This document shows positions 11,788 through 27,071 of a stretch of DNA of 60,000 bases, in pieces. A program made the position numbers and the translations under genes. How positions within the stretch are numbered: the stretch's first letter is position 1; each line of letters opens with the position of its first letter. This DNA comes from Bolinopsis microptera (Eukaryota > Ctenophora > Tentaculata > Lobata > Bolinopsidae), in NCBI RefSeq assembly GCF_026151205.1, contig NC_087074.1:18018712-18078711 (forward strand), read 5' to 3'. A model generated the notes under the pieces. The model saw only the letters and a program-made list of their open reading frames with translations. It did not search any database and was not told the origin of the DNA.

Positions 11788-13334
11788 ACTCTACTCTCCG
11801 ATACTCACATGCTATCAAGAGATTAATTAGTATTACGAATCAAAAGGACGCAGCATTAGAGAGGGTATTAAATAAGCGTACCTGGAGGGGGGTTCAGCCA
11901 GGTTTATCAGATATTGAGTAGGCTCGGAATGCAGTTTCACTCCCCTCCCCTCTCTCAGTTTCATAAAGCCGGCACCCAGTTTGTTCCTTATTTGCTAAAC
12001 CTTACAATCTTGAAATTACCTCAAATTTCGTATCGGGAGATATGTTAGGCTGGCAGGACTCATGATAAGAAATCGGGTTAAGAGCTAGTTAATGTATTGG
12101 CCCGGCATTTAGAGAGGTTTTTCAAATTTATTAATGAGGATTTGGATCGACCAAATGTTTCACGGTACCTTACTTTTCTTCTGTAAGTAACCCTTCAATT
12201 TTTACAACGATTTCTATCAGAAGCATGGTGATATCAGGACTGCAGAAGTATCTAGTTACTCTGGTAGCACGGTGTAATTAAGTTACATACGTAATATAAG
12301 AGATCTGATCGCAATTGCGCGCAATTTAAGCAGTCGTTTGCGCGAACTTGAAGGTAGTTAGTATAATTTAAATTTATCTGCGCGTTCCATAAATGTTGTC
12401 CAATCGGCACGTAGCCAGTGTATGTTCTCTTTTCAGAATTGTAAATTTTGTCCCCCAAGTTTGGATCTGAAATAGCGAAAAATTTAGGTGCGTGCGGAAA
12501 TTCACATCGATAAATAATACTGTTCGTAGAAGACTACCAGAAGAAGGCCTTGTATTGTATATTGTTTATGGGTCCGAAAAAATTGATATAAGCTGGAATG
12601 ATCACACATTGACACATATTGATTGGAAATTTACTTTTAATAAACAGGTAACGAACAGTATTTTATTGAGAGAAGTTTCACCGATACAATGATAGAGCCC
12701 CACCACTCAGGATATACTGCAAAAGTGCATATGTACCGGTAACGGTAGAGATCTTAAGGTACTGTTCCTGGCTTCATTCGAGTCCATCTTTCTATATGGC
12801 TCTGAACCATGGACTATCAGCCAGACCCTCCCAAAGCGTATATACGGATGTGACATAAAAGCATAAACTGGAAAGAGCGGCCAACTACCGCCAAAGTGTA
12901 TTGACACCTGAGAGTATCCGATAAGATAGCTGAGGGGAGGATGAGGCTCGCCAGACATGGCGGGTACATTTTTTTTATTAAATACTTTTCAAATTTTACA
13001 GAGTACAGCAATAGATGAATATAAAATAGAATCGTTCAAAATATCGCCCCCATCTGTAAAATATGATGGGCACCCAAACACGGTAAACACATAGTGAACT
13101 ATGTCCGCAGTAACTTGGACCCATTACATCGAATTAATCTAAATCCAAAAATTTATGAAAAACTATTTAAGAACAAACAAATCCATGGTGAATAACTGTG
13201 GATATAGAGTCAAAATTGGTATTTCAATACGTCAAATTCCAGATACATTAGATACAGGTCTGAAATGGTCATTAATGTGTGAGAAGGTGTGCGGGTGAAG
13301 TGTGATATGAAGTTGAAAGTATAGGAAGGTAGAT
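11788..13334. other. intergenic repeat-rich stretch
   Basis: No host exon was recognised. A 70-bp segment at 12432-12500 is the inverted partner of 18178-18252. A T-rich run at 12966-12978 could mark the end of a repeat. The short frames at 12707-13011 on the minus strand have no recognisable domain. Confidence 0.5.
12432..12500 (-). repeat. inverted repeat partner flanking the retrotransposon (left)
   Basis: Read on the minus strand this matches 18178-18252 at roughly 80% by eye, including the identical string GACAAAATTTACAATTCTGA. The pair brackets the 13.3-18.2 kb retrotransposon in opposite orientation. Confidence 0.6.
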
Positions 13335-13387
13335 AAAAAAATTAATAAAACAAAAATAATAATAATATGGGGAGCAAAGAGACTAGG

Positions 13388-16300
13388 CTAGACTGTTGTT
13401 TCACTATCCAATAAACATTTCCATAGATGCTTAGTGACCTCAGCTTTGAAAAGACTAGTAGACACAATCTGTCTTACCTGTAAAGGGAGTCCATTCCACA
13501 GTATATGGGTTCTGTAGAAAAATGATTTTGCCAGAGGGCTATTTGAGGTACATGTGGTGTGTGAATTCTGACTTAACTTAGGTAAAATTGATGACACAAT
13601 AGACAGACTGTCGAGGTGGCAACGTCTTAGTCGAGAAGTGCCCTGATATAAAGAGAGATAGTGAGGCAGCGATACAGGAATTAAATTGTTAAGAACTTTG
13701 TGGAAAAAAATAAGATCATTCAAGTCAAACTTTTGAGACAAAGGGAGAATGTCGACAAGCTTGCACTTTTTGACATATTGCTCAGGTGGATAACTGCGGC
13801 CCTCTTCAGACAGAATCCATTTAATAGCTCTCTTTTGGAGACTTTCTAATTTATCACTAAGTGATTTATTACAAGGGCGCCAGATTATGGAACAATTTTC
13901 GAATTGGCTACGAACCAGGGAGAGGTAAAGCGCCCGGCGACGTTTCTGATCAATGACAATATATGGCCATCTCTTCTGACCATACCAAGTTGTTGGCAGG
14001 CCTTAGTATAAATTCTGTCGCACTGACTATTCCAACTTAGCTTAGGAGTAACATCGACTCCAAGATCTTTTTCTAACTCTACATACACAAGAGGAGAGCC
14101 ATCAAGATTATATGCGAATGGAGGAGATAAAGATGGTTTTCCTGAAACAATAAGCACTTTACATTTTGCTGGATGGAATCGCATTTTGTTTCTTAGTGCC
14201 CAGTCAGAGAGATAGTCTATATCCATTTGTAAATTAGTATTATCAGAAGATGAATGTATTTTACGCCAGATTTTTGTATCATCGGCATACAAAACAATAT
14301 CAGTATTATCCGAAAGGCCAAGAGGAATATCATTGATAAACAATACAAAAAGTAAGGGACCAAGAATAGAGCCCTGGGGGACACCAGAATTAACTGAGAG
14401 GGTAGATGACATCTCATTACCAATAACCACTCTTTGGTAACGGCCTTGAAGGTAATTGGTAAGAAATTTGAGAAGTGTACCATCAATGTTATATAAGGTC
14501 TTTAGCTTATGAAGAAGGATATCATGATTTACAGAATCAAATGCCTTAGCAAAATCAAAATACACAACATGATTGATAATGTTTTCGTTAAGAGACAATG
14601 CCAGGCTATCACAAAAGTCAACCATATTGGTTGTGCATGACTTGTGCTCTAGAAAACCATGCTGCCTGGGATCAAGAAGGGTACTTGTCAAAGAAAGCAG
14701 TTTACGTTTAACAATGCGCTCAAAAACTTTCATGACTAAACAAGTAAGGGATATTGGTCTATAGTTTTCAACCTCACTTTTCTTACCTTTCTTAAATATT
14801 GGGACAACATTTGCAAGTTTCCATTCTTGTGGAATGTAGCCGCTGTTGTAAGATCCACGAAAAATGCATGTTAGAGGGTAAGCTAAACCTACGGAACAAT
14901 TTTTGAGAATTTTACCGTGTATGCCATCTGGTCCCTGGGCTTTATTTGAATTAATATTTGAAAGAAGCTTACGAACATCCCGATGATCGAAGTCAATATC
15001 AAAATCAACATCATTGACATAGGAGATGTCAGTGTCATAAAGTGAAGGATCCGAAAACTGGTTATAAAAGAAAGAATTGAAAAGTTCAGCTTGAGCTTTG
15101 GGTTTGAACCGAAGCTGTCCAGAATAACTAACACAATTAGGAATACGGCAGGAGTTAGATTTATACTTAACATGTGACCAAAACTTCTTAGTTATAAGCG
15201 CTGGATCATCACTATTGAAAAGATTGTCTCTTATTTTGGCTGATGAAAGCCTCTTAAAATCTTTACGGCTAGTAACAAACTTTAACTCATCAGAAATAGA
15301 ACCAGAAATTTTAAATTTAGCTCTGAGTCTATCTTTTTTACGGCATGAAGAAAAAAGTTCACTATCGAACCACGGGGGTTGAAACTCTGATTTAATAGTT
15401 ACTTTAGGAATATGTATATCAACTAAATTCATAATGCAGTCTTTAACTAACTTCCAAGACGAATCAGGATCTAGGCATTCCAGGACTTGCCAATTAATCG
15501 AGCATAATTCACGATTAATCATGTCCCAGTTTGCTTTCTTATAATTATAGATTTTACGTTTAGGAGTTTTCTTGCGGGAAAAGGAGCTTTTAATTGAAAA
15601 AGTGACAGGAAAATGATCAGATTTGCACACGGAATGAGGATCACAGACATTCAAGTTATCGATTGTGTTATCATAATTACTGAGAAGAATGTCTAATGTA
15701 TTACCACTTTTATGGGTGGGTGATGTGATCAACTGGGAGAGAGAAAGATCACTGAAAGAATCTATGAAGGATTGCTCAATAGGTACGGTACTGGATGAAG
15801 ATAGCCAGTCTGTATGGGGGAGATTAAAATCACCAATAACATAGATTTTAGGGGGATTCTTTTTGGAAACTAGCTTGCGAATATAACTAACTATGACATC
15901 ATGATTAGGTAACCCAAGAGTTCCTACTCTATAACAAGTACAGATTACAATACTCTCTTTGTTAGGAAAAGCAATTTTAACGGCAAGCATTTCTGCACCT
16001 AGGCTAACTGGTAGTCGGGTTGTAGTGGCATCGAGATCAGACCGAACAGCCAAAAGAACACCACCTCCATTTTCCCTAAACTTTTTAGGGTTATTAGGAT
16101 CTTGAGGATGAGTCTTTCTCGTGCGGTCATTGCGGAAGATTTCATATTGAGAAGAAGGAAAGATTTCGTTGCTAGAAATAGATTTTTTGAGCCAAGTCTC
16201 ATTTAGGGCAATTATGTCAGGCTGCTCTATGTTAGCAAAGGATTGAAGTTCGGAAATCTTATTACCATCAAGAAGGGGATGGGAGGAGCTTACGTTACTG

Positions 16301-16905
16301 AAAGGAATAAGACCTTGGACATTTTGGTAGAGTACAGATAGGGAGTTGGGACCTGGATTAAGCATAGAAGGATTAACAAGAGTTATCAAAAGAAAGTTAA
16401 GAGAGAAAACCCAAAGAATGAATAAAGATACTAGACGCCTGAGGCGGCTGGAATACTTGACTCTATTCATCTTACCAGGGAGAAGAACATTTCTTATAAA
16501 CCATGAGGAGATAATTACAAAGAAAAGTTTGATGTGGGAGCAAGCAAGAAATGGTATAAGATAACGTGGGCTGTCAAGGAGTAGAGAGGAATGAATATTA
16601 TAATCTAGGGGGAATACGGTGTTCATGGACCTAGTCGTGGAGAGAAGAATTGGGAGAAGGTAAGTCATGATGAGAGAATAGAAGAGAAACATATGATTAT
16701 GAGAATTGTGGTTGATGTGTGGAGTGTATGGGGACTTGAATGTGTAAATTTTGTTAGGTATAAACGTGTTGATATGTATATGTGCATTTCTTGACTGTGT
16801 ACGAGGCCTTTTGCATGCAAAAAGACCTATTCTAAGTCTAAACGATTCATTGTCTAACATATGGGAAAATGGGCAGTGACCGAATGTACCTGAAATAGGA
16901 GGCAT
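13388..16905 (-). pseudogene. retrotransposon ORF2: endonuclease and reverse transcriptase, one frameshift
   Basis: The main open frame (16905 to 13885, 1006 residues) starts with a variable leader holding three hydrophobic stretches and ending in LNPGP at residues 182-186. The endonuclease domain follows, with QNVQG, NETWL, GDFN and SDHFPV. Then comes reverse transcriptase with NYRPISL, DFAKAFDSVNHD, SGVPQGSILGPLLF and LYADDTKIW. Near 13975-13985 the frame slips by one base. The conserved CR1-type tail, with RTHILWNG, continues in another frame and stops at 13388. The enzyme would nick target DNA and copy element RNA at the nick. The single frameshift makes this copy probably inactive, unless it is a sequencing error. 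Confidence 0.85.
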
Positions 16906-17002
16906 AAAATTGAGAAAAAGATTAAATCAGAGATTTGTTTGAGTTTTAATTTTAGGCGCAACGTCTTAATCAAAATATTAAATGAAAGAAAAGATCAAAG
17001 AT

Positions 17003-18046
17003 TTAAATTCCCAGAAGATTATTTACAACCCTGTCAAAACTGTGTTCGTTTACAACAAACTTAAGCCAAGTGGACAATAAACCTACTCCTCTCATGTTGA
17101 GATGAAGCCAATCATGGTATAGAAGTTCATTACAGGATCTAAAGTCTCGAGTTAAAAAGTCTGAGAAACAGTCTAAGAACACGCAATTATTATTTAGGCA
17201 TAAGTCTTTAAGTAGATTATTAAAATCTAGAACATTCTTTGCTATGTAGGAATATAAACACTTAATAGGAAGACAACATTGGATAATTATAATTGCAGCG
17301 GGAAATAACTGCTTAGTGGTGTCAATTAAGTCATTAAGATACTTCCTAAGGAACTGAACCCCATACTTAGAATGTTTTATGTCATTTGTACCAACACTCA
17401 ATATAATCTTTTCAATATCGTCAGCTTCTGCAGCTGCATGAGTTTTATGAAAATGCTGAATATTTTCAGTGATATCTCTAATTTTTGCACCACTTTGGGA
17501 CACATTGATTACTTTCCTTCCCCGGAATCCCAACTTATTTGTCCGTACGAATTTTGTCATTGACGTACCAAACAGGACAGTGGTTTTTCTGCTCTTCGGT
17601 TTTCTTGGAGCATTTCGGTAGTAAAGGGTTGGTGTTGAGGTGGTGGTGGGCGGCATAGGAATTGTAGTGAGAACATTCTGCTCCCTGACTACATTTGTAT
17701 CTGTCTTCGGTATCTGGCAGCGAAAAGATAAGCTATACCGAGTCTCCTTAGCTGATCTCTCTGCACGAACCTTGTGAAGACAATATTCCTGACACCCCGG
17801 TTTCATAATATACAAACTACAGTCCTTTGGGGTGATATGGCATTTACTGTTACATCGCTTATCCCCATTTTCTGGAATTATGTCGAGGGTCCTCTCAGCT
17901 CCAAATGAAACTACATAAATACCTTGCGACTGGTCAAGAGACACCTCGTCGTCGTTGTGGTACCTAGTTGAACAAGAACCAGACTTGTACATGCTTGCTA
18001 GGCATGAGTTTAGCTTGCAGCCAAACTTGGAGTTGATATCATGCAT
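17003..18046 (-). CDS. retrotransposon ORF1: AlkB-like dioxygenase domain plus SGNH esterase domain
   Basis: 347 residues from the first ATG. The frame is open for about 36 more codons upstream without an ATG, so the N-terminus may be incomplete. Residues 1-110 resemble AlkB-type 2OG-Fe(II) dioxygenases: iron ligands in H30-N-D32, a third ligand H91, and the AlkB signature R103-x5-R109 (RYSLSFR), with GIYVVSFG in between. A threonine/proline-rich linker at about 120-150 leads into an SGNH hydrolase fold: block I GTS (S162, in place of GDS), block III VGTNDI (G219 to D222) and block V DWLH (D312 and H315). Esterase ORF1 proteins are known from CR1/L2 elements. AlkB enzymes oxidatively remove alkyl groups from nucleic acid bases. 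The combination suggests protection or editing of element RNA or DNA, which is inference. Confidence 0.8.
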   Translation of the reverse strand: MHDINSKFGCKLNSCLASMYKSGSCSTRYHNDDEVSLDQSQGIYVVSFGAERTLDIIPENGDKRCNSKCHITPKDCSLYIMKPGCQEYCLHKVRAERSAKETRYSLSFRCQIPKTDTNVVREQNVLTTIPMPPTTTSTPTLYYRNAPRKPKSRKTTVLFGTSMTKFVRTNKLGFRGRKVINVSQSGAKIRDITENIQHFHKTHAAAEADDIEKIILSVGTNDIKHSKYGVQFLRKYLNDLIDTTKQLFPAAIIIIQCCLPIKCLYSYIAKNVLDFNNLLKDLCLNNNCVFLDCFSDFLTRDFRSCNELLYHDWLHLNMRGVGLLSTWLKFVVNEHSFDRVVNNLLGI

Positions 18047-18165
18047 AAGCTCTGATATCCCAGATTGAAATATTGCAAACCGTTCAAAACTTTCGTGGTA
18101 AAGTGGTTTACTACAACCTCCGGGCGTGCTCCTGCCGCGATTACATCATCAATTATAAATTACTT

Positions 18166-19086
18166 AAAAATTACTTATCTCCGCATGCACCTAACTTTTT
18201 CGTTATTTTAGATCAAATTTGGGAGACAAAATTTACAATTCTGAGAATAAACCTTGGGCGAAATTTGGGGACATTCTTACAATTTCGCTTACAATTTCGC
18301 TAGAACACCTCCTCTCACGTAGCTATATTTATTGTTATTATCTAGAGACCGACAAAAAGTCATTGTCGAACCTGTACTTAAACTATGTAGCTCCCGCCAG
18401 CAAGTCCTGGTCTTGAGGTCAGGGCCACTGAGGACTGCTCCGTTTCATAGCTAGCTGAGAAAACATTCATTAGTTGATAATTCAAGTTATGTATTCAGTG
18501 GTTTATATGTATAATGGTTATATCTCTTTTATAAAATATTAACCTATAGATTTTGAAAATGGTAATTTTGAAATTTGTAGTTCATCTTGTATTGTAGTTC
18601 ATCTTGTATTGACGGTTGAGGCGGTCGACATAATAATCTGTAAATCCAATCAGTTAAGGTAAGAAAAGCTGAAACCCGAAAATTCTGAACATTACATACA
18701 CATAGCATACACAGTCAAAACTTAGTCATTCTTATTCAATATGTACCAATTCGAATTTAAAACTACTACTAATAACCACTACTATAATATGATATATCTA
18801 CAATTTTGTTGAAAACAAATAATTTAAGCTATTCTTTATAGAACCACACCGACGTAAAACAAAAGTTTATAAAGCTACTGCTATACTATATTAATTATAC
18901 CAATATTAACTGTCGCACTTGACTTGAGAGAGTAGGGGGAAAGAGTATAAAATTCAGTCAAATGATCTATTCAACTTATAAACACATAAGTTATACAGAC
19001 TAGTTAACTTATAAAGTAGCAAATACATTGGGATTTGAAAGTAATATTGTAAGTTTGACGGTTCTAAATAAGAATTATATAATACG
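18166..19086. other. spacer with inverted repeat partner, no gene seen
   Basis: It contains the right-hand copy of the inverted pair (18178-18252) and AT-rich sequence up to the stop codon of the SDF2 gene. No exon was recognised. Confidence 0.5.
18178..18252 (+). repeat. inverted repeat partner flanking the retrotransposon (right)
   Basis: Plus-strand copy of the segment whose complement lies at 12432-12500. The shared core includes GACAAAATTTACAATTCTGA and a GCACCTAA string. Confidence 0.6.
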
Positions 19087-22000
19087 TTACAATTCATCGT
19101 GAGCAGAATTATCTTCATTGTTAGGTAGAAACATAACCGCCTCTACTGGTTTCCATAGTGACGCATCTGATATACCACTGTGTGCTGAAGTAAAAGGTAA
19201 GTGTTACCAAGTTCAATAAAACTGTGTAGTAAGTAACTCGGGGGAGGGGGGTTTACGAAAAAAGGGCGATATTTTAAGATTCACGTTCGGAGAATTGGGG
19301 CTCATAATGCTATTATTCCAAAAAAAGAACTCATCATAATATGCTGTGTACTTTATAGAGTATAGTGTGTACTAAATACTATATAAATAATAAATATGTA
19401 CACATTAGGTTAGTAGCTTCTTTACTTTTGAACAGATTTGTGCTGCGGAGCTAACTGTTTACATAGAAATTAGGTTTATTTTTCATCCAACTTTTTAACT
19501 AACACAATTAAGTCTTTATGTCGAGTGAAATGTATTTTCTTGCTTGAATTTAAATACGCTGCATATCTCATGAAGTCAGATCAGATCGCCTAGATGAAAT
19601 ATAAAGTGAAAATAGCACAAGCAATTGCGAAAAGCTTCATTTCTTGTTTGGATATCAGACCCTAGTATATCATACACCCTTGTAGGTGTACCTACAAGGG
19701 TGTACCTACAAAGGTAGGTTATGGGGTTGCCTCCCCCGATTTGATACATTCCTCGAATGAGTGGTGATAGCAAGTCATACCAGAAATAATTATCTCAATC
19801 GGGCATTCAGTAACTGAGCTATAAAGGCAAACGTATGTAAACTGACTTTTAGCCCCCCTGTATATTCGATGAATTCAGTTAAACCCGTTAAAAATAACTG
19901 TCAAAAATTATGAAATAGTCACACAAGCTGATTTCCTTACCAGTAACTTCATACTGTCCAGCAATGGGTCGGCCGAAGGTTTGTCCCGGGACGGTGAGGT
20001 ATTTGGAGGTTACCACGTGACGCAGTCTGACGGGAGAGGTTTTATACCAAATCTCAGAAGAGCAGATCACTTGCCAGTTATCTCCGTCATCACCTAAACC
20101 ACCCTCACCAAACGCTGATACCTGGATAGTGGGTCAGGTTACCAGGTTAGTTTACACTGCTACCTAGGTGAGGTTACCAGGTTAGTTTACACTGCTACCT
20201 AGGTGAGGTTACCAGGTTAGTTTACACTGCTACCTAGGTGAGGTTACCAGATTAGTTTACACTGCTACATAGGTGAGGTTATCAGGTTAGTTTACGCTGT
20301 TACCTAGGTGAGGTTACCAGGTTAGTTTACGCTGTTACCTAGGTGAGGTTACCAGGTTAGTTTACGCTGTTACCTAGGTGAGGTTACCAAGTTAGTTTAC
20401 GCTGCTACCTAGGTGAAGTTACCAGGTTAGTTTACGCTGCTACCTAGGTGAGGTTACCAGGTTAGTTTACACTCCTACCTAGGTAAGGTTATCAGGTTAG
20501 TTTACGCTGTTACCTAGGTGAGGTTACCAGGTTAGTTTACGCTGTTACCTAGGTGAGGTTACCAGGTTAGTTTACGCTGTTACCTAGGTGAGGTTACCAG
20601 GTTAGTTTACACTGCTACATAGGTGAGGTTACCAGGTTAGTTTACACTGCTACATAGGTGAGGTTACCAGGTTAGTTTACACTGCTACCTAGGTGAAGTT
20701 ACCAGGTTAGTTTACGCTGTTACCTAGGTAAGGTTACCAGGTTAGTTTACACTGCTACATAGGTAAGGTTACCAGGTTAGTTTACACTGCTACCTAGGTG
20801 AAGTTACCAGGTTAGTTTACGCTGTTACCTAGGTGAGGTTACCAGGTTAGTTTACGCTGCTACCTAGGTGAGGTTACCAGGTTAGTTTACACTGCTACCT
20901 AGGTGAGGTTACCAGGTTAGTTTACACTGCTACCTAGGTGAGGTTATCAGGTTAGTTTACGCTGCTACCTAGGTGAGGTTACCAGGTTAGTTTACACTGC
21001 TACATAGGTGAGGTTACCAGGTTAGTTTACACTGCTACATAGGTGAGGTTACCAGGTTAGTTTACACTGCTACCTAGGTGAAGTTACCAGGTTAGTTTAC
21101 GCTGTTACCTAGGTAAGGTTACCAGGTTAGTTTACACTGCTACATAGGTAAGGTTACCAGGTTAGTTTACACTGCTACCTAGGTGAAGTTACCAGGTTAG
21201 TTTACGCTGTTACCTAGGTAAGGTTACCAGGCTAGTTTACACTGCTACATAGGTAAGGTTACCAGGTTAGTTTACGCTGCTACCTAGGTGAAGTTACCAG
21301 GTTAGTTTACGCTGTTACCTAGGTAAGGTTACCAGGCTAGTTTACACTGCTACATAGGTAAGGTTACCAGGTTAGTTTACGCTGCTACCTAGGTGAAGTT
21401 ACCAGGTTAGTTTACGCTGCTACATAGGTGAGGTTATCAGGTTAGTTTACGCTGCTACCTAGGCCTAGGTGAGGTTACCAGGTTAGTTTACGCTGCTGCA
21501 GGTAACTAGGTGAGGTTACCAGGTTACTAGGTGAAGTTACCAGGTAACTAGGTTAGGTTACCAAGTAACTGGGTGAAGTTACCAGGTGAGGTTACCAGGT
21601 AACTAGGTGAGGTTACCAGGTAACTAGGTGAAGTTACCAGGTAACTAGGTTAGGTTACCAAGTAACTAGGTGAAGTTACCAGGTGAGGTTACCAGGTGAG
21701 GTTACCAGGTAACTAGGTGAAGTTACCAGGTAACTAGGTTAGGTTACCAAGTAACTAGGTGAAGTTACCAGGTGAGGTTACCAGGTGAGGTTACCAGGTA
21801 ACTAGGTGAAGTTACCAGGTAACTAGGTTAGGTTACCAGGTAACTAGGTTAGGTTACCAAGTAACTGGGTGAAGTTACCAGGTGAGGTTACCAGGTAACT
21901 AGGTGAGGTTACCAGGTAACTAGGTTAGGTTACCAAGTAACTAGGTGAAGTTACCAGGTAACTAGGTTAGGTTACCAAGTAACTGGGTGAAGTTACCAGG

Positions 22001-25610: not shown

Positions 25611-27071
25611 ATGAGTGATATACGTCAATTACGTAAAATTGATATTGGCAAAGGAACGGAGCAAGGACACCCCCTATCACCAGACCTTTTTAAAATCTAT
25701 ATTAATAACTTGTCATCTCTTCTGAAATCTGTTGGTGATTATCCAGTTCTTGCTGACGTTCTAATATCACATCTGCTCTGGGCTGACGATCTTGTCCTTC
25801 TTGCTCTAAGTCCCAAGGCCTTGCGAGTCAATATCAACATTCTATCTGACTTCTGTAACTCCATGGGCCTTGAAGTAAATATAAAGAAAACTAAGATTGT
25901 CATATTCAGCCCTCCCAAAAAGAAGCAGTCCCATGAAACATTTACATTGGGAGGTCAGCCCATCCAGCACACCGAAAAGTACTGCTATCTTGGCATAATA
26001 TTCCACAGAAATGGATCCTTTACGGCGGCAAATACTGAGCTGAGGGCCAAAGCTCTCCGTGCTCTATATGGCCTTAAAGGCAATATAGTTAAAGATGCCC
26101 TCTCTCACCGTGCCCTTAATATTCTATTTGATTCCTTAATCAAACCAATCCTGCTTTATGGCTGTCAAGTCTTATGCCCCCACTCTAAAACAATGAGATA
26201 CCTTTCAAAAATAGATGACAAAGCCAGCCCCCAGCATACCCTGAAGTACATTGCACAGGACCACTATGAGAAATTCCACCTAAAATTTATCAAGTGGTCT
26301 TTGTCCGTCCATTCAAAAGCATCAAATATAGGTTGCTGGGGCGAAAGTGGGCGCCACCCCCTATTTTTTGAAGCCTGCAAACTTGCAATAGATTACTATA
26401 GTCGCCTTGAAAGCACCGAAAATGAACTACTTTGTGCTGCATTTCACGAGCAGATCATGCTGGGCCTTCCTTGGTATACCAACATCTCAAAGCTTCTCAC
26501 CAAATACAACTTCCCCCACTCATCTTCATCAAAATCTAAGCTCTCCACCCAAATCAGTCATAATATGAGGGAAGAATTCGTAAATACCTGGAAATCTGCC
26601 AAGGCCTCCTCACCAAAACTAGAATTCTATAACTTAATTAAACATGATTTTGAACCAGAGGCATACCTACGAATAATCAAAGTACCTGATTTTCGAAAAA
26701 GCTTGACAAGGTTTCGTATCAGCTGCCACAACCTCTACGTTGAAAGGGGCAGATACGAAACCCCTCTTGTACCAAGAGAAGAACGTTGGTGCACTTACTG
26801 CTTTTTCAGTAAAGGGCTCAAACCTATCGAGGACGAAAGCCATGTATTAATTGACTGTTTGCTTTACTCCTCAGTTAGGGAAAAATTCAACTTTTATCCC
26901 CAAAACATCACTGACCTAGCCGGTCTGCTCTCCAACAAAAATCTAGATCCTACCAAATTTACTGCCACAGCAAGAGCAATCCATTCAATTCTCTCTGTGA
27001 ACGAACAATATACAGCCTATTATAAGAGCCCAGATTTCCACTCAAATACTGGCAAGTGCATAATGCTCTAG
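25611..27071 (+). pseudogene. partial retrotransposon ORF2 (C-terminal reverse transcriptase)
   Basis: 486 residues open from 25611. The start falls in the middle of a polymerase domain: EQGHPLSPDLFKIYINNL, then LLWADDLVLLA with the ADD catalytic core, then GLEVNIKKTKIVIF and YCYLGIIF. The C-terminal region has a cysteine/histidine cluster (WCTYCFFSKG, then ESHVLIDC) typical of the tail of CR1-like ORF2 proteins. The endonuclease and the first polymerase motifs are absent, so it cannot work alone. The long intact frame suggests a fairly recent loss. Confidence 0.8.

Follow-up and report, generated by a model that had tools for sequence, protein, structure and literature searches.

An AlkB-like dioxygenase joined to an SGNH esterase in LINE ORF1 proteins and Helitrons of the ctenophore Bolinopsis microptera

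Introduction

Can a retrotransposon bring along its own enzyme for repairing or demethylating nucleic acid bases? The question is raised by a 60,000-nucleotide stretch of the Bolinopsis microptera genome (NC_087074.1, positions 18,018,712 to 18,078,711; hereafter the window), in which an original prediction, made from the letters alone, read the first open reading frame (ORF1) of a long interspersed nuclear element (LINE) as a fusion of an AlkB-like dioxygenase with an SGNH esterase, directly ahead of ORF2. The motifs on which it relied, H30-x-D32, H91 and R103-x5-R109 for AlkB and GTS162, GTND222 and D312-WLH315 for the esterase, do lie at the claimed places in one minus-strand frame of 347 amino acids (aa; 17003-18046), the codons having been rechecked, and the endonuclease and reverse transcriptase (RT) domains of a LINE ORF2 lie behind it. 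The extent of the frame was overstated: said to reach 18165, it is open only to 18145, and three stops fall in the stretch up to 18166. The pairing is wider than the prediction saw: AlkB occurs in LINEs of five RT groups, with an SGNH esterase after it that is clear in some and weak in others, and beside SGNH in Helitrons.

Domain identity and conservation of the ORF1 protein

Residues 5-113 of the window protein match human ALKBH3 (E 6.8e-9) in a single-sequence search of PDB chains, and residues 157-325 match the ORF1 esterase of the zebrafish element ZfL2-1 (4c1b; 7.1e-5 by single sequence, 3.8e-13 by profile). Pfam recognises the predicted esterase half (Lipase_GDSL_2, 3.4e-12) but not the AlkB half: the Pfam AlkB model PF13532 is reached neither by the window protein nor by P0001, and the related PF03171 stays under its cut-off (E 0.0046). 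Of 78 relatives, 58 match PF13532 at E 0.001. Because the window protein lacks a Pfam AlkB match, profile comparison, predicted fold and intact copies were used, and both profile and model give the double-stranded beta-helix of AlkB enzymes that the prediction implied. The domain order in ORF1 is N-terminal helices (3-10, 15-34 and 54-66 in the predicted model), then AlkB, then the SGNH esterase. The Ser, Gly, Asn and His blocks of SGNH/GDSL hydrolases and their fold are present in window-type ORF1, and both folds are also supported in a second family set. Judged by these matches, the window ORF1 is the esterase-type (type IV-like) ORF1 of a two-ORF LINE, with an AlkB-like dioxygenase in addition.

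The residues expected of two working active sites are kept in other copies. An alignment of window-type proteins was built from 79 of 99 matches (those longer than 440 aa) and 10 genome loci, 89 rows with a mean column identity of 33%. The AlkB residues H143, D145, E147, H204 and R222 (numbered on the 460-aa intact ORF1) are present in 89 of 89 rows and R216 in 88, while SGNH residues S275, G299 and N334 are invariant and H428 is missing from a single row. In the second family set, the HxD, E, H, R and R positions are kept in 123 of 123 sequences. The two arginines presumably serve 2-oxoglutarate (2OG) and the substrate. The Glu of H-x-D-x-E, which we take to contact the methylated base, is present in every row tabulated (13 LINE, one Helitron), and the motif is common to the host ALKBH2- and ALKBH3-like proteins.

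Purifying selection acts on the AlkB domain between families, as measured by the ratio of non-synonymous to synonymous change (omega; Nei-Gojobori, custom scripts). L035 and L036 give an AlkB omega of 0.172 (synonymous divergence, dS, 0.77) and an SGNH omega of 0.099, and L035/L041 an AlkB omega of 0.180. In the three pairs among L058, L061 and L062, AlkB is under tighter constraint than the SGNH region: 0.054 against 0.154 (L058/L061), 0.055 against 0.138 (L058/L062) and 0.072 against 0.127 (L062/L061). L049/L055 give 0.122 for AlkB at a near-saturated dS of 1.8. The selection for which the original prediction proposed a test stands between families (AlkB omega 0.054-0.180), but cannot be demonstrated within the window family or among close copies because they hold too few changes; L034/L037 and L036/L041, each with a single AlkB change, are uninformative. 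Across the whole of ORF1, omega within the window family is 0.32 (23 of 29 loci with a full ORF1 start used, six dropped).

LINE copies and families in the genome

A single window copy might also be read as a pair of host genes beside which a LINE happened to land, and beyond that one copy nothing speaks for such a reading. Searched with the window protein, the assembly that contains the window (264.65 Mb, 232 contigs) gave at least 118 matches (117 of 850 candidates scored). Among the 118 listed, 33, the window copy included, span 347 residues (plus or minus one) at 95-100% identity, and 32 of these are without a stop. For 20 LINE-type loci the 3' flanking sequence was also retrieved, and in all 20 ORF2 or a broken part of it adjoins ORF1 (in 18 according to ORF lists, in L032 and L033 from their alignment with L031; broken in L037, L039 and L040). 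These side-by-side copies, a search for which had been proposed, refute the host-pair reading and leave it a negligible chance. In full copies the ORF1 frame runs to about 478 aa, and the 460-aa ORF1 is counted from the Met that opens MDLNS. Both ORF1 (460 aa) and ORF2 (1171 aa) are intact in L031, an element of 5598 bp; since it retains both frames and has relatives 99.3% identical over 5.6 kb, it argues for recent LINE activity.

The Pfam AlkB model finds at least 151 matches in the genome (150 of 587 candidates scored), in frames of up to 3388 aa. Among the eight best (L043-L050), two look like host genes (L043 ALKBH2-like, L044 ALKBH3-like), four are copies of one LINE family, one is a Helitron and L045 is ambiguous. 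L045 (C5:22265392-22268829) has an ALKBH3-like AlkB frame of 296 aa, followed some 700 bp downstream by a distinct SGNH-like frame, and may be either a host gene or another element. An AlkB-bearing ORF1 with an endonuclease/RT ORF2 behind it occurs in L049/L055, L053, L054, L056, L057 and L058/L061/L062, and the window-type families L031-L041 have the same layout. These ORF2s were identified by Pfam scan in five cases (window, L053, L054, L056 and L058) and otherwise by reading, with 13 rows placed by an RT tree. That tree, which holds this genome's elements only and does not assign them to named clades such as CR1 or L2, has five groups: window-type, L053/L049/L055, L056/L057, L054 and L058.

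How secure are the two domains across these groups? PF13532 is above cut-off in L049 and L053-L058. In the window-type families the SGNH domain that follows AlkB is clear. It is under the Pfam cut-off in L049, L053, L054, L055 and L056, the fold being confirmed for the L053 type; in L057 it shows in a BLAST match to L056 (3e-17), and in the L058 type only in motifs picked out visually and a weak BLAST match. Weak PHD-finger matches in L056/L057 are below cut-offs (E 0.0035-0.0074). Scans of viral and bacterial contigs gave one weak 22% AlkB match (IMG/VR contig L060) and none for the second family. A search for AlkB-only homologues returned 22 proteins, which were taken as pieces of the same ORF1s and not used.

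Two observations concern ORF2. The window carries, on the plus strand at 25634-26796, an ORF2 fragment of the L058-type AlkB-bearing LINE, 87% identical to L058 over 1163 bp and held in an open frame at 25611-27071. In L031, L034, L035, L039 and the window (16320-16926), ORF2 has an N-terminal extension ahead of the endonuclease, with hydrophobic stretches ending in NPGP (VNPSMLNPGP, for example). This extension looks like a degenerate 2A-type skipping sequence in which D-x-E, a part of the 2A sequence, is absent.

The same pair in Helitrons

Helitrons have 5'-TC and 3' hairpin-CTRR termini and A-T targets. One locus (L047 and L051) encodes, in a 2459-aa frame, an SGNH domain, a Pro/Ala-rich linker, AlkB, DUF6570, Helitron_like_N and a PIF1 helicase, in that order. 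AlkB is well supported (PF13532, 2.1e-22) and SGNH falls just under its cut-off (31.1 bits against 32.9), while Helitron_like_N (PF14214, 4e-23) and the PIF1-like helicase (PF05970, 6.2e-21) place Rep and helicase in one replicase. A second copy, L059, is by reading nearly the same sequence and is open for 3039 aa in the fetched piece; the check for Rep and helicase covered these two loci only. A genome search with the Helitron SGNH-AlkB region gave at least 38 matches (70 of 6202 candidates scored). Among the matches listed, 12 loci have both halves (nine close copies, two of a more distant family on contig C9 and a decayed one on C13), two are short fragments and six match only in AlkB (query 357-622). 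The LINE loci L034 and L037 account for two of the six, and the other four match them in frame lengths and in scores in the window-protein search.

Apparent exchange of ORF1 and its modules

On sequence comparison, ORF1 appears to have been exchanged between elements. L034 has an RT of the window type (support 99/100) and an SGNH domain closest to that of L031 (32%, 2e-21), but an AlkB closest to the Helitron AlkB (42%, 5e-35), a pairing with tree support of 99/97 and 97/97. Placing L034 among the window-type AlkBs is rejected by the approximately unbiased test in a 30-row tree (p 0.020) and not in a 42-row tree (p 0.168); the group under test was defined with the first tree already in view. 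L049 and L055 are 98.2% identical over 3474 bp of the ORF2 region, whereas the aligned parts of their ORF1s are only 66-70% identical, and the change in identity sits near the ORF1/ORF2 junction, so that we read the pair as a probable recent ORF1 swap in which both versions retained AlkB and SGNH. The AlkBs of L058 and L045 fall near host proteins (94/82 and 84/83), and the transposon AlkBs as a whole may or may not go back to a single origin.

The window copy

The window copy itself is a young, dead LINE copy, 5'-truncated and with a broken ORF2 frame (Table 1). It aligns with L031, its longest aligned relative, over 5095 bp at 99.27% identity with one gap (blastn), being two bases longer than L031 within the aligned stretch. 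Homology to intact copies stops at 18063, inside ORF1 codon 108, so that residues 1-108 are gone, and with them the helical N-terminus and the opening strands of AlkB; the first Met of the window frame, at 18046, is residue 114 of the full ORF1. The marks of a LINE are all present: an ORF2 with apurinic/apyrimidinic (APE-type) endonuclease and RT, multiple copies, 5' truncation and an A-rich 3' end, the last common to L031-L033. No clear target-site duplication was found in the four LINE copies examined. Just outside both ends lie the arms of an inverted repeat (12430-12501 and 18177-18247; 87.5% identity over 72 bp), which look as if the LINE copy had inserted within a fold-back element.

Table 1. 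Features of the LINE copy in the window, with residues numbered on the full-length ORF1
Feature	Position	Strand	Basis or remark
5'-truncated LINE copy	12969..18063	minus	blastn against L031; shared A-rich 3' end
ORF1 remnant, residues 109-460 of 460-aa ORF1	17003..18063	minus	
AlkB-like 2OG/Fe(II) dioxygenase domain, residues 109-226	17708..18063	minus	domain residues 36-108 missing in window copy
HxD iron ligands His143, Asp145	17951..17959	minus	codons checked
Glu147, just after HxD	17945-17947	minus	
Second iron-ligand His204	17774..17776	minus	conservation in 89 rows
Arg216-x5-Arg222, 2OG-binding signature	17720..17740	minus	conservation in 89 rows
SGNH/GDSL hydrolase domain, residues 265-448	17042..17593	minus	
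SGNH catalytic codons Ser275; Asn334; His428	17561-17563; 17384-17386; 17102-17104	minus	
ORF2, APE-type endonuclease and RT	13885..16926	minus	RVT_1 9.9e-29, Exo_endo_phos_2 6.2e-13; frame broken C-terminally
ORF2 C-terminal part, different frame	13388..13741	minus	117 aa nearly identical to L031 ORF2 C-terminus

Relation to known systems

Type IV ORF1s of CR1/L2 LINEs carry an esterase, as in ZfL2-1 ORF1p, and the related domains named are coiled coil, zinc finger/leucine zipper, PHD and RRM; in the portions covered, none of the five described ORF1 types includes an oxygenase (PMC3905857, PMC4120745), and the main texts of both papers have zero occurrences of "AlkB". The window-type LINE resembles ZfL2-1 in its SGNH esterase ORF1 upstream of an APE-endonuclease/RT ORF2, its predicted helical N-terminus and its sequence match to 4c1b; it differs in having AlkB between the helices and the esterase. 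The nearest precedent found is a group of orchid Ty3/Gypsy elements, retrotransposons that likewise encode an AlkB-type demethylase, whose ORF (2-ODD, the 2OG-dependent dioxygenase class) is a demethylase of N6-methyladenosine (m6A) in RNA in vitro. These are, however, long terminal repeat (LTR) elements of one Phalaenopsis lineage with a separate 565-aa ORF2, titled a recent acquisition, and the portions covered mention no esterase (PMC9289625). AlkB is also found in plant RNA viruses of the Alphaflexi-, Betaflexi- and Closteroviridae, with a postulated role in RNA repair (PMC9289625, in part). They too are RNA replicons bearing their own AlkB, but are viruses and not transposons. To our knowledge they have neither RT nor esterase. 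In bdelloid rotifers, GDSL esterase ORFs are common to LTR and Penelope-like elements, an esterase module shared across mobile-element classes, and non-LTR esterases are taken as independent captures; the difference is that no oxygenase accompanies them ("oxygenase" has 0 occurrences in the parts of PMC5408684 covered). In the portions covered of Creative Commons-licensed PubMed Central full text, neither LINE ORF1s nor Helitrons were found to have been reported with an AlkB domain, Repbase, Dfam and subscription journals being outside that scope.

Possible functions

What could such a protein do for the element? LINE RNA must be copied by RT, which 1-methyladenosine (m1A) and 3-methylcytidine (m3C) block. 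The best explanation, and in our judgement a fairly probable one, is an esterase-type LINE ORF1 whose AlkB domain oxidatively demethylates the element's own single-stranded nucleic acid. ORF1p would multimerise through its N-terminal helices and coat the element RNA, from which AlkB, with Fe(II), O2 and 2OG, would strip base methyls: lesions of the m1A/m3C type, which halt reverse transcription, and perhaps m6A as well. The template would thereby remain copyable and less visible to the host, and the SGNH domain may have lipids or membranes as its partners, a role already put forward for ZfL2-1 ORF1p. Helitrons go through single-stranded DNA, and there AlkB-SGNH, fused to Rep-helicase, would act on this intermediate or on element mRNA. 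Because both classes share the domain, a role in shielding single-stranded nucleic acid or clearing marks from it fits better than a function confined to RNA templates, and relatedness to ALKBH2/3 together with the H-x-D-x-E motif favours repair-type substrates; m6A, or N6-methyladenine (6mA), may also be erased. The proposal that the element carries its own base-repair or demethylation enzyme gains support from domain identity, kept residues, selection, the signs of recent activity and recurrence, and from the orchid Ty3/Gypsy AlkB, which demethylates RNA in vitro (PMC9289625), though it is read from sequence.

Could marks placed by the host be the real substrate? AlkB may remove m6A from element RNA, or methyl marks from DNA copies, and so help the element escape host recognition of methylated transposons. 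The presence of AlkB in RNA-copied LINEs and DNA-copied Helitrons of one genome suits a common host pressure over a need specific to RT, and the orchid AlkB is an m6A RNA demethylase in vitro (PMC9289625, in part); we nonetheless hold this reading to be doubtful. That ORF1p acts on the host, with AlkB demethylating host RNA (tRNA or mRNA) or DNA to the element's benefit and SGNH as a membrane part, is quite unlikely. In its favour, none of the measurements here ties the domain to the element's own RNA, and cellular AlkB enzymes act in trans; against it, LINE ORF1 proteins are known mainly as cis-acting ribonucleoprotein components.

Several observations weigh against a working demethylase. Human ALKBH2 and ALKBH3 are single-domain repair enzymes, and the Asn of N-x-Y, whose Asn120 and Tyr122 in E. 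coli AlkB we take to be 2OG contacts, is kept in this genome's ALKBH2/ALKBH3-like proteins but is Ser in L031. In the window-type set only five of 89 rows have Asn at the Asn120 equivalent, against 53 with Ser and 15 with Thr, and Tyr occupies the Tyr122 position in 69; in the second family set (n=123) the corresponding counts are Thr 94 and Asn 11, and Tyr 114. Both residues are present in L034, L049, L055, L056, L058 and the Helitron L047. Within the window family the AlkB omega is 0.69, from 231 pairs with very few changes (per pair, means of 1.4 synonymous and 3.5 non-synonymous), and comparison with the outlier L015 gives 0.49 (22 pairs); L031/L023 give 0.45 (3 and 5 changes) and L035 against its close copy L040 gives 0.56 (3 and 6 changes). 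Relatives were, moreover, found by similarity, so that badly decayed ones are under-sampled. AlkB may be structurally kept yet inactive in the window lineage. In its general form, this would make the AlkB fold a nucleic-acid-binding module of a Gag-like ORF1p with no need of catalysis, for which the loss of Asn120 in most of the window-type set and the high within-family omega would count. The iron ligands and both arginines are, however, invariant or nearly so in two large sets, which binding alone does not require, and we regard a purely structural use as unlikely.

A broader reading of demethylation by the elements themselves is that AlkB-SGNH is a portable nucleic-acid-processing cassette, swapped among LINE lineages and Helitrons and kept to remove methyls put on mobile-element nucleic acid by the host or by single-strand chemistry; we offer this as a tentative possibility. 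If true, it would imply an arms race over base methylation, waged with the transposons' own demethylases. For the diverse and poorly understood LINE ORF1p, two conserved active sites, of which one is demethylase-like, offer a directly testable enzymatic role, and RNA- and DNA-copied transposons bearing the same enzyme pair in one genome provide a natural case. ALKBH gene counts in invertebrate genomes could also take in transposon copies; four LINE copies and one Helitron are among the eight best AlkB matches here.

Further observations

Identical decayed ORF1 copies, with the same E-values and stops, recur at matched spacing on contigs C10, C12, C13, C5 and C11. A spacing of 36,663 bp separates C10:7598938 from 7635601, C12:1364478 from 1401141 and C13:15319248 from 15355911. 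The same decayed copies at matched spacing on several chromosomes suggest a duplicated block of tens of kilobases. In the window, positions 20132-21497 hold a tandem array with a 35-bp unit, at least 38.9 copies and 92% matches (scan to 21500).
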